64,000 bases of DNA from an uncultured Campylobacterota bacterium (GTDB lineage: Bacteria; Campylobacterota; Campylobacteria; Campylobacterales; Sulfurovaceae). The notes under the pieces were generated by a model. The model was not told where the DNA came from, made no database searches, and was given only the letters and a program-made list of their open reading frames with translations. Below are positions 15,218-21,018 of this stretch, piece after piece. The position numbers and the translations under genes are program-made. The first letter of the stretch is position 1, and the number at the start of each line of letters is the position of its first letter. Location of the stretch: assembly GCA_937141405.1 (NCBI GenBank), contig CAKZQQ010000005.1, positions 496,001 through 560,000 on the forward strand, read 5' to 3'.

Positions 15218-15917
15218 AATACTCCTTTTTTGCTTTTATACTATGTATCTTAGCATATCCAAAAGCCTCTTTTGCCTCTTGAAGATAATTGTTATCTTCA
15301 CCAAAAACGATAAAAGGCGACTCAACTTTAGTGGCTGATTTTGAATTGTGCCGACAAGCCAAAAAGACCAATTTTGAATCTCTATCTTTCTTTGAATGCA
15401 CAAATCGTATATGCTCAGCTCTGAGATGATACTTTTCAAGCAGACTCAACAAAGGAGGTATCTGTTTAGCATCATAACAAAAAAAGAATCTCCCCTTTGG
15501 CTTGAGTACTTTATGCACTTTGGCGATAAAATCTTCTAGTGGCATATGCGATGCGTGCCTTGATATCTCGATATTTTCATCAAAACTTTTTGTAGTACCT
15601 GTGGCATAAAAAGGAGGGTTTGAGACGACTATGTCAAACTTTCTATCCTCTTTAAGATCAAAAAAATCTTGATGCAGTGCCTCGACATCCAATGTGTTGA
15701 TGCTATAATTTATCTCTGCAAAGTCGATCATAGAACTCTGCTTATCAACAATATGTGCTTTGATGTCAAATTCTCTTGAGAGCACCAAGCCGACCACTCC
15801 GACTCCACAGCCCACATCAAGCATCTCGCCTTTTGGTTGAAATTTTGAGATAAAATGTATCAAGAAAATGGAATCACTATTGAAAGAATAACCACAATCA
15901 GACTGATAAACTATCAA
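15207..15917 (-). CDS. TrmN6/YfiC-like SAM-dependent methyltransferase
   Basis: This is a class I N6-adenine-type methyltransferase resembling the enzyme that methylates A37 of tRNA-Val in E. coli. Motif I is LDVGCGVGVVGL, and the catalytic N6-adenine motif NPPF is followed by YATG. The start YQSDCGYSFNSDSIFL matches the family N-terminus. The frame is open 22 codons further upstream, but I select the TTG at 15917, with AAAGGTG upstream and a TAAAAT box at 15938-15943; this gives 236 residues. It heads the operon with the YkgJ-like and TPR genes. The substrate is inferred from family resemblance. Confidence 0.85.
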   Translation of the reverse strand: MIVYQSDCGYSFNSDSIFLIHFISKFQPKGEMLDVGCGVGVVGLVLSREFDIKAHIVDKQSSMIDFAEINYSINTLDVEALHQDFFDLKEDRKFDIVVSNPPFYATGTTKSFDENIEISRHASHMPLEDFIAKVHKVLKPKGRFFFCYDAKQIPPLLSLLEKYHLRAEHIRFVHSKKDRDSKLVFLACRHNSKSATKVESPFIVFGEDNNYLQEAKEAFGYAKIHSIKAKKEYCDH

Positions 15918-15933
15918 AAAAGCACCTTTTTTA

Positions 15934-15961
15934 TTGAATTTTACAACAAAATTAGTATAAT
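15934..15961 (+). promoter_or_regulatory. Sigma-70-type promoter of bpt, predicted leaderless
   Basis: TTGAAT (15934-15939), 16-base spacer, then TATAAT (15956-15961). The ATG of bpt begins at 15969, only seven bases after the -10 box. Transcription would start at or within a base of the ATG, and no ribosome site exists in the short interval. Confidence 0.55.
15938..15943 (-). promoter_or_regulatory. -10 box of the methyltransferase operon
   Basis: TAAAAT on the minus strand, 21 bases before the TTG start at 15917. It lies inside the spacer of the opposite-strand bpt promoter, so the two divergent promoters physically overlap. Confidence 0.35.
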
Positions 15962-15968
15962 CGCGTTT

Positions 15969-16736
15969 ATGAATCCAAAACAAGACTCTAGATTGACACC
16001 GCCATCGACAGAATTTTCTATGTTGGACTATGAGTGTTCTTACTTACCCGGTAAAATTGTTAGAATGCACTATAGATATGTTTTTCAACCAAATAAAACA
16101 TTTCTCTCTGCTGTTATCAAAAGAGGTTGGAGAAGATTTGGAAAATTCTACTTTCATCCTGTTTGCGAAGGTTGCTATGAGTGCAAGAGTCTCCGCATTG
16201 ATGCAGATAACTTTACCCCAACTAAGAGTCAAAAGAAATCACAAAATAGAAACAAAGATACGCAAATAGTCATACAAAAACCAAGCATGACCAAACATCA
16301 TATCGAGCTTTACAATCGCTACCACCAATACAAGCAAGGCAGCAACGGATGGCGATATAAGGCGATAAGCTTTAGAGAATACTATGAAAACTTTGTTGAT
16401 GGCGCAGGTGATTTTGGAAGAGAAGTGCTCTACTATAGAGACGATAAACTCATCGGTGTTGATCTTATAGATATCATAGATGACGGAATCAGCTCTATAT
16501 ACTGCTATTATGACCCTGAGTATAGCCGTTACTCTCTTGGCACATTTTCACTACTCTATCAAGTAGAGTTGGCTCGTCAAATGCACTTGCGTTGGATATA
16601 TCTCGGGTATTGGGTTGAGGGGTGCAAGTCATTTGCATACAAAACAAACTACAATCCACAAGAGATACTCGATAACTTCCCGCCGCTAGAAAATAAACCG
16701 GAGTGGCGAGAGGCTAAAATCTCCGATCAAAACTAA
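15969..16736 (+). CDS. bpt: Aspartate/glutamate leucyltransferase (Bpt, N-end rule)
   Basis: Bpt transfers leucine from Leu-tRNA to proteins with N-terminal Asp or Glu, marking them for ClpS/ClpAP-type degradation. The start region ECSYLPGKIVRMHYRYVF and the cysteine motif FHPVCEGCYECKSLR are family hallmarks; later segments YYRDDKLIGVDLID and CYYDPEYSRYSLGTFSLLYQ match the acyltransferase fold. The frame extends 38 codons upstream, but the ATG at 15969 gives the usual N-terminus (255 residues). It sits seven bases after a TATAAT, implying a leaderless message. Its 3' end overlaps the convergent Slam-like gene by 23 bases. Confidence 0.92.
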   Translation: MNPKQDSRLTPPSTEFSMLDYECSYLPGKIVRMHYRYVFQPNKTFLSAVIKRGWRRFGKFYFHPVCEGCYECKSLRIDADNFTPTKSQKKSQNRNKDTQIVIQKPSMTKHHIELYNRYHQYKQGSNGWRYKAISFREYYENFVDGAGDFGREVLYYRDDKLIGVDLIDIIDDGISSIYCYYDPEYSRYSLGTFSLLYQVELARQMHLRWIYLGYWVEGCKSFAYKTNYNPQEILDNFPPLENKPEWREAKISDQN

Positions 16737-18138
16737 AATAGACTCTATTTTTATCGAATGCAAAGATGTTGATATTGCTTTTTACATGCGTATATTCAAA
16801 ATTTATCTTTGGCATCACACCCCAAAAATACCAATCACGCTTCCATAATGATAGATCATAACTATACTCTTTATCATGCCTTTGTATGCCATAAATATTT
16901 GGAGCATCATCATAGACTTTATTGGCATAATTCGCACTTATCTTAGTAGAAAATGCGAAGGGTATATCTTTTGCAAAACCTATCCTTATAGCACTTCTCG
17001 TGAATGACTCACTTCGCTCTTTTGCATGGTTATCATACTGATCAATACCGCCAAAAAGCATAAAACTCGGCGAAAAAGAGTACGATGCACCAAATGAACC
17101 AAAACTATACCATCCATCTAAAAAAGTGCGTTCATCATAACTGTTTTTCCCAAGCTCAACAGCAAAAGAATTTTGAAATTTACGACTCCATAGATAAGAG
17201 AGTGAAGTTCTTGCACCCCACGATTGGCTATAAGGATTGTTGCCAAAGAGACGCTTTTGGAAAAAAGGCATCAGTGTAAAACTCTTTGTAGCATCTTCCC
17301 ATCTATAGCCAAAAGAGGCCCTAGCGACAAAATCATTATACTCATCATACTCTTTATAAGTTTTTCCATACATACTCAAAGAGCTTACAAGCACATGATT
17401 GTCTTTGAGGTTGATATTTTTCTGCATCCACAAAGCGTACCCTACCCCTCTGTCATGTTTGGGTAAACTCTCTTCACTTCTCTCAAAAATCCAATTACCT
17501 AACTTCATATATTTATCACTGGAGGTTTCATTGATATTGTCATCGTCGATATAGTTCAAAGAGACACTCCATTGAAAATCATTTTTCTTCTGGATAGCGA
17601 GAGTGTATTGGTTGATAGTGCTTAGTATCTGCCGAGGAAGATAGGGAGTTGCTCTTAGTTTATCGAGCTGAAAGGAGGCTGCTTCATACTCCTTATTTCG
17701 GAAAAGAGCTTGCACGAGGTAGAGCCTCACGGGACCAAGCGTTCCATCCTTTTCAAGAAGTTGCCTATATCCGCTAATCGCATCTTTGTATCGGCCCTTT
17801 ACAAAAGCCAAACGACTCTTCGCATAGAGGAGCAAATTGTCATCTTTGATGGCAAGTGATTCATATAGTGGTATCAGATGCTCCACGATGCTCCACTGCC
17901 CTTTTTGAACCGATTGATCCAATATTTTGGAAAACAGCAGAGGATTTGCAAGCAGATCCTCATCGTTTAAAGCTATCTTTTGCTTTTTATGCACAGCAGA
18001 AAGAGCATCTTGCTTCTTCTGATAGAAAACCGTTTGCTCATTTGGTGTTTGAGTAAAATCAGGGATCAACACCTCTTGTCTCGCAAAAACCACTATCGTT
18101 GGCAATAAAAAGAGTAGAGCTATATACTTTCTATACAA
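16714..18138 (-). CDS. Slam-type surface lipoprotein assembly modulator (TPR + outer-membrane beta barrel)
   Basis: Slam proteins move specific lipoproteins through the outer membrane to the cell surface (type XI secretion). A signal peptide (residues 1-19, ending VVFA) is followed by a periplasmic helical domain to about residue 185 with TPR-like repeats (LLLYAKSRLAFVKGRYKDAI; VRLYLVQALFRNKEYEAASF). From about residue 188 come alternating amphipathic strands and short polar turns, with Asp-Asp-Asp and Tyr-rich loops. The protein ends in Phe (YFSFDRRF), the BAM-recognition signature. The 474-residue length and domain order fit the DUF560/Slam family. The two lipoprotein genes directly upstream are the expected cargo. 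The start is a TTG after GAGG with a short spacer. Family assignment is from architecture and motifs; a profile search would settle it. Confidence 0.75.
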   Translation of the reverse strand: MYRKYIALLFLLPTIVVFARQEVLIPDFTQTPNEQTVFYQKKQDALSAVHKKQKIALNDEDLLANPLLFSKILDQSVQKGQWSIVEHLIPLYESLAIKDDNLLLYAKSRLAFVKGRYKDAISGYRQLLEKDGTLGPVRLYLVQALFRNKEYEAASFQLDKLRATPYLPRQILSTINQYTLAIQKKNDFQWSVSLNYIDDDNINETSSDKYMKLGNWIFERSEESLPKHDRGVGYALWMQKNINLKDNHVLVSSLSMYGKTYKEYDEYNDFVARASFGYRWEDATKSFTLMPFFQKRLFGNNPYSQSWGARTSLSYLWSRKFQNSFAVELGKNSYDERTFLDGWYSFGSFGASYSFSPSFMLFGGIDQYDNHAKERSESFTRSAIRIGFAKDIPFAFSTKISANYANKVYDDAPNIYGIQRHDKEYSYDLSLWKRDWYFWGVMPKINFEYTHVKSNINIFAFDKNRVYFSFDRRF

Positions 18139-18160
18139 AAAACCTCAATTCAAAATATCA

Positions 18161-18187
18161 TAAAAGAATCTATAGTTAACAACCCTT
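18161..18187. repeat. Duplicated 3' flank, copy 1
   Basis: This stretch, just beyond the stop of the first lipoprotein gene, matches 19077-19103 beyond the second one. The first 15 bases (TAAAAGAATCTATAG) are identical and CCCTTTA follows at the same distance. It shows that the duplication that produced the two lipoprotein genes included sequence downstream of the stop codon. Confidence 0.6.
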
Positions 18188-18189
18188 TA

Positions 18190-18963
18190 TTAATCATTTT
18201 TTTGTGCACCAAAAGAAAATCCGAGAGCTCCATCTTCACTGTCACTAAGCACTCCTGTACCACCTAATTCTTCAGCATCGGGACCAAAAAAACTTCCGGA
18301 GAAAGTGCCGCCATTATTCCAAGAAGATGCTGTTGCAGTACCACTAAAATCACTTCCATCAATATCGCCGTCAAAGAATAAACTTTCACCAAATAATGCG
18401 GGACCTGCGTCTTGAAAACCTCCCTTGATTTTTTTATCGCCATAATTCACGTCAAATCCAATAGAAGCATCTTGAAACTGCCCACTAATTGATAAAGTAG
18501 TAAGATGCCCGGAGTATGATGCTGTGCCTACTGTAGGCATAGAGCTTGTCTTTTGCCCAACATAAAAGACTTCCCCATCAACATATCGTGGAGCTTCTGC
18601 TGCAGGAGTAATAGAGCTACCACTATAAGAGTAATATGTAGCAACAACACCAAATCTAGAATAGCTATAAGTAGTGCCACCAATATGTTTAGCAATGGCA
18701 CCTTCTGTTATATGAACAAATCCACCTATCGGCGTCGCTCCATCAAGAGTTACATCTACGGGTGTGCCTTGATAGTTATAAGTATATACTGCATCATCAC
18801 CGGTACCAACCACTGAAGCAACTCCCGCCTCTCCTCCTCCTTCTACTTCAAGCCCCGTATATGTCTGTGTGACCGCCGCAGGTGTTGCACTACCGCCACC
18901 GCCACCACATGCACTCAACATCATCATAACCATAGCTATAAGCATAATATTCAAAATTTTCAT
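18190..18963 (-). CDS. TbpB-like surface lipoprotein, paralogue A
   Basis: Probable Slam-exported surface lipoprotein. The signal peptide ends in the lipobox LSAC, with Cys19 lipidated, followed by a Gly-rich tether. Residues 140-152 (SSMPTVGTASYSG) form the first strand of a TbpB/hemophilin-like C-terminal beta barrel, which ends with GSFFGPDAEELGG (223-235), a motif characteristic of that superfamily; the N-terminal 100 residues are also strand-rich and likely form the ligand-binding handle. Size is 257 residues. It is paralogous to the next gene. A run of nine G residues occupies the ribosome-site position before the ATG. What it binds is unknown; haem, haemoproteins or metal carriers are ligands of known relatives. 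Confidence 0.8.
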   Translation of the reverse strand: MKILNIMLIAMVMMMLSACGGGGGSATPAAVTQTYTGLEVEGGGEAGVASVVGTGDDAVYTYNYQGTPVDVTLDGATPIGGFVHITEGAIAKHIGGTTYSYSRFGVVATYYSYSGSSITPAAEAPRYVDGEVFYVGQKTSSMPTVGTASYSGHLTTLSISGQFQDASIGFDVNYGDKKIKGGFQDAGPALFGESLFFDGDIDGSDFSGTATASSWNNGGTFSGSFFGPDAEELGGTGVLSDSEDGALGFSFGAQKND

Positions 18964-18969
18964 GATTAT

Positions 18970-18978
18970 CCCCCCCCC
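18970..18978 (-). repeat. G9 homopolymer in the ribosome-binding region of lipoprotein A
   Basis: Nine consecutive C on the plus strand read as G9 in the transcript, six bases before the ATG at 18963. It replaces a normal Shine-Dalgarno site; the paralogue has AAGGGAAA at the same place. Tracts of this length slip during replication in Campylobacter and Helicobacter, so the spacing and strength of translation initiation may vary between cells. Confidence 0.7.
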
Positions 18979-19076
18979 TATTTATATTTTTTATCAACTA
19001 TATAATATCACACACATCTTAAGATATTGTTAATATTATATAAATTTTTATTTATAATTCTTTTCTTAAAAAATTG

Positions 19077-19103
19077 TAAAAGAATCTATAGATAATAGCC
19101 CTT
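19077..19103. repeat. Duplicated 3' flank, copy 2
   Basis: Second copy of the post-stop sequence described at 18161-18187, running into the stop of lipoprotein B. Fifteen bases are identical and the CCCTTTA element is shared. No terminator hairpin of convincing strength forms in either copy. Confidence 0.6.
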
Positions 19104-19816
19104 TAGGGTTTTTTTGCGCCAAAAGAAAATCCAAAAGTTCCACCTCCATCATTAAAGGTTCCAGCTCCTCCTAGCTCTTCAGCATTGGGACCAAAAAAAC
19201 TTCCATGATACTCGCCTGCTATTGCAGCCCCGGACAACATAGTGCCACTAAAATCACTTCCAATAATACTATCCTCATCAAATGTCATAATTGTTCCGTC
19301 AAGAGTAGCATCTCCACTGATTGTTTTACCAGCATAATCTACAGTAAATGTAACGGTAGCATCGTTAAATTCTCCATCTTGCAAAGTAGTAAGATACCCG
19401 CCGTATGTTGCTGTACCTGTTGTAGGCATAGAACTTGTCTTTTGCCCAACATAAAAGACTTCTCCGTCGGTATATGTATCTCCTGGAGTAAAACCATCAA
19501 ATGAGGCAACAACACCAAATCTAGAATAACTATAAGTAGTACCGCCAATATGTCGAGCAATACCGCCACCTGTTGTATCGACAAATCCACCTATCGGCAG
19601 CGTTCCACTAAGAGTTACATCTACGGGTACACCATTAAAAAAATAAGTATATTCTTCATCTTCATTTACAGAAGCAACTCCCACCTCTCCTCCTGTTGCT
19701 GCATAGAGGCCCGTATATGTATCTGTGACCGCTGCGGGTGCAGCACCACCGCTACCACTGCATGCACTCAACACCAACCCAACGATAAACGCTATAATCA
19801 CATGGTAAATTTTCAT
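19103..19816 (-). CDS. TbpB-like surface lipoprotein, paralogue B
   Basis: Second probable Slam cargo (237 residues). The signal peptide ends in lipobox LSAC (Cys19), followed by a Ser/Gly/Ala tether. It shares long blocks with paralogue A: PVDVTL, PIGGFV, HIGGTTYSYSRFGVVA, DGEVFYVGQKTSSMPT and the barrel-end motif GSFFGPNAEELGG (205-217). Between the blocks, loops differ in length and sequence, as expected for exposed surfaces. Some shared blocks are almost identical at the DNA level, so the duplication is recent or maintained by gene conversion. AAGGGAAA precedes the ATG, without the G tract of its neighbour. It is the first gene of the lipoprotein B, lipoprotein A, Slam run. Confidence 0.8.
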   Translation of the reverse strand: MKIYHVIIAFIVGLVLSACSGSGGAAPAAVTDTYTGLYAATGGEVGVASVNEDEEYTYFFNGVPVDVTLSGTLPIGGFVDTTGGGIARHIGGTTYSYSRFGVVASFDGFTPGDTYTDGEVFYVGQKTSSMPTTGTATYGGYLTTLQDGEFNDATVTFTVDYAGKTISGDATLDGTIMTFDEDSIIGSDFSGTMLSGAAIAGEYHGSFFGPNAEELGGAGTFNDGGGTFGFSFGAKKP

Positions 19817-19914
19817 GCTATTTCCCTTATTGATATCATATCTAATAGTAAGATATTATCATCTATAACTTAAATTTTTATCTTAATGAATAATTTTTAT
19901 AAATTATTCTACTG

Positions 19915-21018
19915 TTATTTTAACTTTCTAACCCAATTATAAAAGAGTCTATCGGGATCAAGTCTTGCATCGATAGCTTTACCCGTAACGATGTGCTGTG
20001 CAAGTTCGCTTGCGCAATAAGGAGCAAAGACAAATCCTCTTGCACCCAATGCATTGTGCAGATAAATATTTGGGATATATCTCAAAGGATACCTTCTGCC
20101 ATCTAAGATATTTGGTGAGTTTTGGAGCATATACTCTACATCGATGATCTTGCCGACTGTTGGCGTATAGTCACGATTTGATGCTCGCATACCGCAATGC
20201 ATCCCCGTAAGCTCAAAATCGCTACTATCGATCAGGGAGGAGGCTTTCTCTAAAAGTCCCGCAACCGACTTCTCATCACAAGGTATCACCTCTTTGACAT
20301 CGAGCTCATGTGTTGCCCCTATCTTGATGACTCCATCAAAATTTGCAGATATTGAGATGTTTTTGTGCATAGAGAGATCAAGTTTGAATTGCGTTTTAAA
20401 ATCACCGCGATTGCCCCAGATACCCTTGATGCTCATATATCTTATATCAAGCAGATCCGTCTCATATCCTGTAGCAAGAACGATATTTTGAGCACTATAC
20501 TTACCGCATATCCAAAGATCATTCTCTTGATTAAGCTCTTTTATATCACTAAGCTCATACTCAATACCTTGTGCCATCTGCTCACAGATACTTGGATCAC
20601 AAATGCCTGCTTGGGGAAATAAAATCGCTTCAAAATCGCTTTGAATGCCAAGCTCTTTGAGCTTTTGAGGCGTATATATCTCATGCTCTAGCGTGATATA
20701 TCGTCTGTATGTCTCAAACTTTTGAGCATCTGTGGCATCTTTTGGGATGCGCAAGATACCACTTTGTAAAAAATGCTCACTAAAATGTTTGCTATAAAGT
20801 TCATAAGCAAAGAGAAAGGCTTCATCGCTGAGTTGTTTTATGGGCAGATCGATGCCCACTTTTGGAGAGAAAAAAGCACCCGCTGCCCCGCTTCCACCAC
20901 CGGCAATACCTTTTTTATCGACAAGCAATACATCTTGTCCGAGTTGCTTTAAAAAATAGGCTGTGCTACACCCTGCGATACCTGCACCGATAACGATGGT
21001 ATCATAGTGGTGTTTCAT
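19915..21018 (-). CDS. FAD-dependent oxidoreductase, MnmC C-terminal-domain-like
   Basis: A DadA/GlyOx-type flavoenzyme. The dinucleotide fold is at the N-terminus (VIGAGIAGCSTAYFL, then LVDKKGIAGGGSGAAGAFFSP) and the C-terminal FAD motif is NALGARGFVFAPYCASELAQ, which closely recalls the FAD domain of MnmC. That domain removes the carboxymethyl group from cmnm5U at tRNA position 34. No methyltransferase half is attached, so this would be a stand-alone MnmC2-like enzyme; an amino-acid oxidase is the alternative. It starts directly after the glyS stop (adjacent bases), a placement consistent with a translation-related role. Length 367. Confidence 0.7.
   Translation of the reverse strand: MKHHYDTIVIGAGIAGCSTAYFLKQLGQDVLLVDKKGIAGGGSGAAGAFFSPKVGIDLPIKQLSDEAFLFAYELYSKHFSEHFLQSGILRIPKDATDAQKFETYRRYITLEHEIYTPQKLKELGIQSDFEAILFPQAGICDPSICEQMAQGIEYELSDIKELNQENDLWICGKYSAQNIVLATGYETDLLDIRYMSIKGIWGNRGDFKTQFKLDLSMHKNISISANFDGVIKIGATHELDVKEVIPCDEKSVAGLLEKASSLIDSSDFELTGMHCGMRASNRDYTPTVGKIIDVEYMLQNSPNILDGRRYPLRYIPNIYLHNALGARGFVFAPYCASELAQHIVTGKAIDARLDPDRLFYNWVRKLK

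Follow-up and report, generated by a model that had tools for sequence, protein, structure and literature searches.

A Slam (type XI secretion) cassette with two tandemly duplicated cargo lipoproteins, likely acquired horizontally, in an uncultured Campylobacterota bacterium

We analysed a 64,000-nucleotide stretch of DNA (hereafter the window; positions 496,001 to 560,000 of contig CAKZQQ010000005.1) from an uncultured Campylobacterota bacterium of the family Sulfurovaceae (GenBank assembly GCA_937141405.1), the genome of which is 1.75 Mb in size and 98% complete. An earlier reading of the window (the original prediction) had proposed that it holds a surface-lipoprotein export locus of the Slam (type XI) kind, composed of a Slam outer-membrane protein and two dedicated cargo lipoproteins. 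The three open reading frames (ORFs) lie on the reverse strand at the predicted positions, in the order cargo 2, cargo 1, slam, with a spacer of 139 nt between the two cargo genes and one of 51 nt between cargo 1 and slam (Table 1). The whole genome contains a single gene of the SlipAM family and no genes of the TbpB_B_D family other than cargo 1 and cargo 2.

Table 1. Features of the Slam cassette and its flanks, with coordinates in the window.
Feature	Coordinates	Strand	Description and evidence
slam	16714..18138	-	474 aa; type XI secretion outer-membrane translocon; SlipAM, TPR_Slam, AlphaFold2, tree
cargo 1	18190..18963	-	257 aa; predicted Slam-dependent surface lipoprotein; LSAC lipobox, handle domain and C-terminal 8-stranded barrel; TbpB_B_D, AlphaFold2
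cargo 2	19103..19816	-	237 aa; paralogue of cargo 1; LSAC lipobox; TbpB_B_D, FHBP_C, BLASTP
G9 homopolymer	18970..18978	-	Shine-Dalgarno position of cargo 1; candidate slippage (phase-variation) tract
Accessory cassette, flanked by bpt and the gene for the FAD oxidoreductase	16737..19914	no strand	Flanks abut in four genus mates and enclose restriction-modification-like genes in three others
bpt (leucyl/arginyl-tRNA-protein transferase-like)	15855..16736	+	Convergent with slam; outside the system; match starts at 15969
FAD-dependent oxidoreductase gene	19915..21018	-	Flanking; outside the system

The slam gene begins with a TTG codon preceded by GAGG, and its product has a hydrophobic N-terminus that, judged by eye, resembles a signal peptide. 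The protein matches the Pfam family SlipAM (PF04575) over residues 190-474 with 206.8 bits (E=6.6e-61; cut-off 22) and TPR_Slam (PF24575) over residues 56-157 with 92.3 bits (E=3e-26; cut-off 35.2). These strong profile scores bear out the claim that this 474-residue protein with a tetratricopeptide repeat (TPR) domain, a barrel and a C-terminal phenylalanine is a Slam. The barrel of a Slam protein is expected to have 14 strands. In an AlphaFold2 model computed from 14 Slam sequences, helices at residues 59-185 (the TPR domain) are followed by 14 long strands at residues 189-472 (mean pLDDT 83.5), the number that the original prediction had named as its structural check. This confirms that the gene product is a true Slam, an outer-membrane protein of type XI secretion.

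Both cargo proteins contain an LSAC lipobox at residues 16-19, as well as the motifs GTASYSG/GTATYGG and GSFFGPDAEELGG/GSFFGPNAEELGG. Both also score above the TbpB_B_D cut-off of 26 (61.1 bits and 2e-16 for cargo 1, 47.1 bits and 4.3e-12 for cargo 2), in agreement with the earlier description of two lipoproteins with motifs of the TbpB/hemophilin type. Only cargo 2 passes the FHBP_C cut-off of 28.1 (35.3 bits, versus 26.4 bits for cargo 1), and the N-terminal half had no match in the Pfam scan. The two proteins are 57% identical in a BLASTP alignment, and their genes form a tandem duplication with a unit of about 850-916 nt that includes flanking DNA. An AlphaFold2 model of cargo 1, computed from 13 cargo sequences, has a confident 8-stranded barrel at residues 147-255. 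Comparison of this model with known structures using VIA-align gave a Z score of 18.6 for the TbpB C-lobe (5kkx; rmsd 3.4 over 200 residues), 18.2 for HpuA, 18.0 for Acinetobacter baumannii hemophilin and about 15 for fHbp, so that the predicted fold resembles TbpB, HpuA and hemophilin, as had been anticipated. Over the TbpB C-lobe, HpuA and HphA structures the Z scores ran from 17.9 to 18.6. A profile of the cargo family retrieves TbpB at 1.3e-33 and hemophilin (8glo) at 4e-25. Each cargo consists of one handle-barrel unit of about 240 amino acids and does not have the two lobes of TbpB.

To place the system, we scanned the Slam alignment against 84,980 species genomes, and located cargo relatives via neighbouring slam genes. 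The first Slam match (94%) came from a metagenome-assembled genome (MAG), Campylobacterales ZodW_Metabat.188, hereafter the sister, and was followed by gammaproteobacterial and neisserial proteins, the best of them from Pseudomonas schmalbachii (36%). The origin of the sister locus from a Campylobacterales MAG fits the earlier assignment of the window to Campylobacterota. In a maximum-likelihood tree, the window and sister Slams grouped together (support 100/100) and were joined to cassettes from Pseudomonas and Enterobacterales (95/89), and the other campylobacterotal SlipAM proteins were split from the window Slam at 100/100. The window and sister Slams sit together on a long branch (1.29), too long to point to an exact donor. 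Across 397 Campylobacterota genomes, a SlipAM score above 100 bits was found in the host genome alone, the next score being 91.5; the sister Slam (genome G066) came from the family search and is additional to this count. Viral contigs scanned with the Slam protein gave no match, and a tblastn search of plasmids with cargo 1 gave zero matches. A PDB sequence search with Slam by itself returned TPR designs and chance matches and nothing else.

The cassette is accessory. In four genus genomes (L047, L048, L051 and L053) bpt directly abuts the FAD oxidoreductase gene, and in three other genus mates (L049, L050 and L052) the junction between them is occupied by genes resembling restriction endonucleases or DNA methyltransferases; bpt itself was found in 10 of the 11 genus genomes. 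This varying content shows that the junction accepts variable genes, the Slam cassette being one of them, and suggests that it is a site of repeated insertion. The empty sites, the nesting of the Slam protein among gammaproteobacterial sequences and the lack of any other strong Slam in the 397 Campylobacterota genomes suggest that the cassette was likely acquired horizontally, apparently from Proteobacteria. Loss in most relatives is possible, but transfer is the simplest reading. Slam-related sequences have been reported from every proteobacterial clade of the time and none from Campylobacter, in a study that lists homologues from epsilonproteobacteria but set aside their gene neighbourhoods and described no cargo there (PMC5449769). 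A full-text literature search for DUF560 together with Campylobacterota, with subscription journals mostly outside its coverage, returned no paper.

Comparison with the sister locus, which has a single cargo, points to a more recent event. Identity between the two loci peaks at 0.92-0.97 inside slam and drops at the ends of the gene, and synonymous divergence (dS) is 0.20 for slam as against 0.91 for bpt, 0.52 for the FAD oxidoreductase gene and 0.96 for glyS. The low dS and the confinement of the identity peak to slam suggest that this gene was recently exchanged between the two lineages. The cargo is diverging fast and slam is under purifying selection: the ratio of non-synonymous to synonymous divergence (dN/dS) is 0.42-0.57 for cargo pairs and about 0.1 for slam and the flanking genes.

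Pairs resembling the window locus, with a lipoprotein of about 250 amino acids encoded immediately upstream of slam, occur on a plasmid of Erwinia sp. E602 and in Silvania, Leclercia, Enterobacter sp. ENT03 and P. schmalbachii. They form the sister clade in the tree, share the cargo fold family and have no TonB receptor noted alongside. They differ in having one cargo and not two, in belonging to another phylum, in a Slam that is 31-36% identical and in lacking a counterpart of residue His93 (see below). Two cargoes, as here, are found in Stenoxybacter. In Leclercia adecarboxylata, a slam-adjacent cargo match (L103:4851-5567) covers the profile only in part and is apparently broken. The Slam1-TbpB and Slam2-HpuA systems of Neisseria meningitidis share the TPR domain and 14-stranded barrel, and the cargo barrel is homologous to the TbpB C-lobe and HpuA; in contrast to those systems, the cargo here is single-lobed, no TbpA/HpuB receptor lies alongside and a search of the host genome for Skp was negative. 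A. baumannii HphA, Haemophilus haemolyticus hemophilin and the HphA proteins of Vibrio harveyi and Stenotrophomonas maltophilia are, like the cargo here, single handle-plus-barrel proteins (Z about 17-18) with one aligned histidine. However, HphA is secreted whereas the cargo here is a lipoprotein, an H43-like ligand is missing and the locus has no haem oxygenase or receptor. The cargo also resembles haemophilin-like group 2 of a survey of type XI secretion system cargo, mostly lipidated handle-barrel proteins of the cluster 1 type, the text of which nowhere uses the words 'epsilon' or 'Campylobacter' (PMC12282271).

Profile, fold, synteny and phylogeny are concordant in supporting the proposed Slam with two dedicated cargo lipoproteins, and none of the refuting outcomes named in the original prediction and open to computation was observed. 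We consider it very probable that the three genes form a Slam (type XI) cassette, gained by horizontal transfer, in which one translocon is accompanied by two cargoes that arose by tandem duplication. We infer that the cargoes are specific to this Slam, are displayed at the surface and bind a ligand, along the following route. The cargoes would be exported by Sec, lipidated at Cys19 and carried by the Lol pathway to the outer membrane, where Slam, through its TPR domain and its barrel of 14 strands, would recognise the C-terminal 8-stranded barrel of the cargo and move it to the cell surface; there the N-terminal handle domain would bind a ligand. Such a cassette would extend to a free-living member of the Campylobacterota an export route that has been studied almost only in animal-associated Proteobacteria, would be direct evidence of a Slam system travelling as a small cassette and would offer a minimal, receptor-free system for learning what such cargoes bind outside hosts.

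Several findings weigh against this interpretation. The cargoes score 68.7 and 71.2 bits with the NCBIfam equivalog model slam_lipo (NF041636), under its cut-off of 80, and the N-terminal half (handle) of the cargo 1 model has low confidence. Apart from the sister, the nearest Slam relatives share just 31-36% identity, too little to name a donor. The sister slam (L059:6001-7420) has lost 2 nt close to its 5' end, which puts it out of frame and is perhaps a MAG assembly error. Finally, the OmpH/Skp profile PF03938 had no match in the host genome. Skp is required for Slam-dependent translocation of TbpB in Escherichia coli and N. meningitidis (PMC9090332). PF03938 was over its cut-off in none of 150 Campylobacterota genomes; E. 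coli passed, as did five further controls. We treated Skp as an accessory and not a defining criterion for Slam membership, and its role may be filled by a holdase that is divergent or unrelated. That Skp is unrecognisable in these 150 genomes raises the testable question of whether Slam needs Skp itself or any holdase for unfolded cargo.

The locus could be explained differently if the TPR-barrel protein were of another kind, either a porin or, like BcsC and PelB, an exporter of polysaccharides, encoded beside unrelated lipoproteins. A Foldseek search of the Slam model against the PDB gave BcsC, PelB, OmpG and FadL as top matches, with no Slam structure among the matches listed. Set against this, the SlipAM (207 bits) and TPR_Slam (92 bits) scores, the Slam-cargo barrel encoded by the adjacent genes and the pairing of cargo and slam kept across Gammaproteobacteria make such a protein hardly credible. 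It is easier to entertain that the type XI system is native to Campylobacterota and vertically inherited, with losses in most relatives, since the phylum has divergent SlipAM proteins of its own with barrel-bearing partners. The window slam, however, clusters with gammaproteobacterial genes and apart from those native ones (100/100), the site is empty in four genus mates and slam dS between the two species is 0.20 where flanking genes have 0.5-0.96, and we regard a native origin as very unlikely. Decay of the locus to a non-functional state would accord with the frameshift in the sister slam and the raised dN/dS of the cargo, but the genes in the window are intact, the slam dN/dS of about 0.1 indicates purifying selection, and the cargoes have a dN/dS below 1 and retain their motifs; a decaying locus is most unlikely.

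What the cargoes of the Slam cassette might bind is a matter for more tentative suggestions. An environmental ligand, as the original prediction proposed, is a guess. Haem/porphyrin or another iron compound is our leading guess, ahead of adhesion or exclusion functions, and one that we hold with little confidence. The fits to the TbpB C-lobe, HpuA and A. baumannii hemophilin are tied, so fold alone cannot pick the ligand. A narrower version of the cassette interpretation takes the cargoes to be haemophores of the hemophilin type, for which the fold match to HphA (Z 18) and the presence of eleven TonB receptors at other sites in the genome can be cited. In addition, His93 of cargo 1 is the sole histidine invariant across three campylobacterotal cargoes and aligns without gaps, with a modest alignment posterior, with His64 of V. 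harveyi HphA; by extrapolation from chain residue numbers, it would be equivalent to H106 of A. baumannii. H43 and H106 are the haem ligands of A. baumannii HphA (PMC8560813). An equivalent of H43 as second ligand is absent from the cargoes, across all three of which only one histidine is invariant. The modest posterior at His93 also tells against the haemophore idea, as do the lack of a His93 counterpart in the nearest gammaproteobacterial cargo relatives, the absence of an adjacent haem gene or receptor at the locus and the equally good matches to TbpB and HpuA. A haemophore function is possible but not the expected outcome, and haem binding by the cargo is a lead suggested by sequence comparison and not a result.

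None of the 11 TonB-dependent receptors of the genome is encoded in the window. The original prediction had noted the absence of an adjacent receptor and taken it to set this locus apart from the pathogen loci. The absence and the contrast with pathogens hold, but the feature is not distinctive, as it is common to the nearest gammaproteobacterial relatives: no TonB receptor was evident in the closest cargo-slam loci (L055, L060, L061, L063, L065 and L067) when their flanking ORFs were read by eye. Eight of the 11 receptors were scanned for a haem-specific type, with scores that, almost without exception, were under the curated cut-offs; the one receptor that passed a model did so for a generic siderophore receptor only.

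The G9 tract ends 6 nt 5' of the cargo 1 ATG and overlaps the expected ribosome-binding site. It is the sole G/C run of at least 7 in the window, where about 0.02 runs of at least 9 are expected, and one of four G tracts of at least 9 in the 1.75 Mb genome; cargo 2 and the sister cargo lack it. Campylobacter is known to use slippage at poly-G tracts as a switch. For cargo 1 we rejected phase variation by a change of frame, as there is an in-frame upstream stop with no start codon between, and G9 could therefore act solely via the 5' untranslated region. The other three tracts (C3:75019, C5:375942 and C5:417095) are intergenic near gene ends and none precedes a start codon, so poly-G is no clear contingency-locus code in this host. 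In the single assembly, G9 has no length variation. Phase variation of cargo 1 through this tract is conceivable but doubtful. The wider proposal, that a cross-phylum type XI system works without Skp (using another holdase or none) and, with a cargo made phase-variable by G9, forms an antigen-variation-like surface system in a free-living member of the Campylobacterota, is more speculative still and rather improbable. The locus stands out for its cross-phylum cassette and for the lack of a recognisable Skp; we offer the readings of the poly-G tract and of haem binding as hypotheses. Also upstream of cargo 1, at 18999-19042, is an imperfect, AT-rich palindrome of 22+22 nt (77% complementary), in which a regulator site is indistinguishable from composition.

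A second type of SlipAM operon was observed in other Campylobacterota (L121:362-6499, L122:933-6904, L123:1662-6499 and L124:3-4325). It is native-looking and has three genes, encoding a FecR-domain protein, a SlipAM/TPR protein and, as profiled in L121, a CHASE2 protein. The FecR-domain protein has a C-terminal TbpB_B_D barrel, which in L121 and L122 scores above both Pfam cut-offs and in L123 and L124 is weaker, and the outer-membrane protein is a divergent SlipAM/TPR protein (SlipAM 28.8 bits in L121). A literature search on this operon found no paper. The operon is a possible type XI system with a signalling-type cargo, and it is probably more novel than the Slam cassette.

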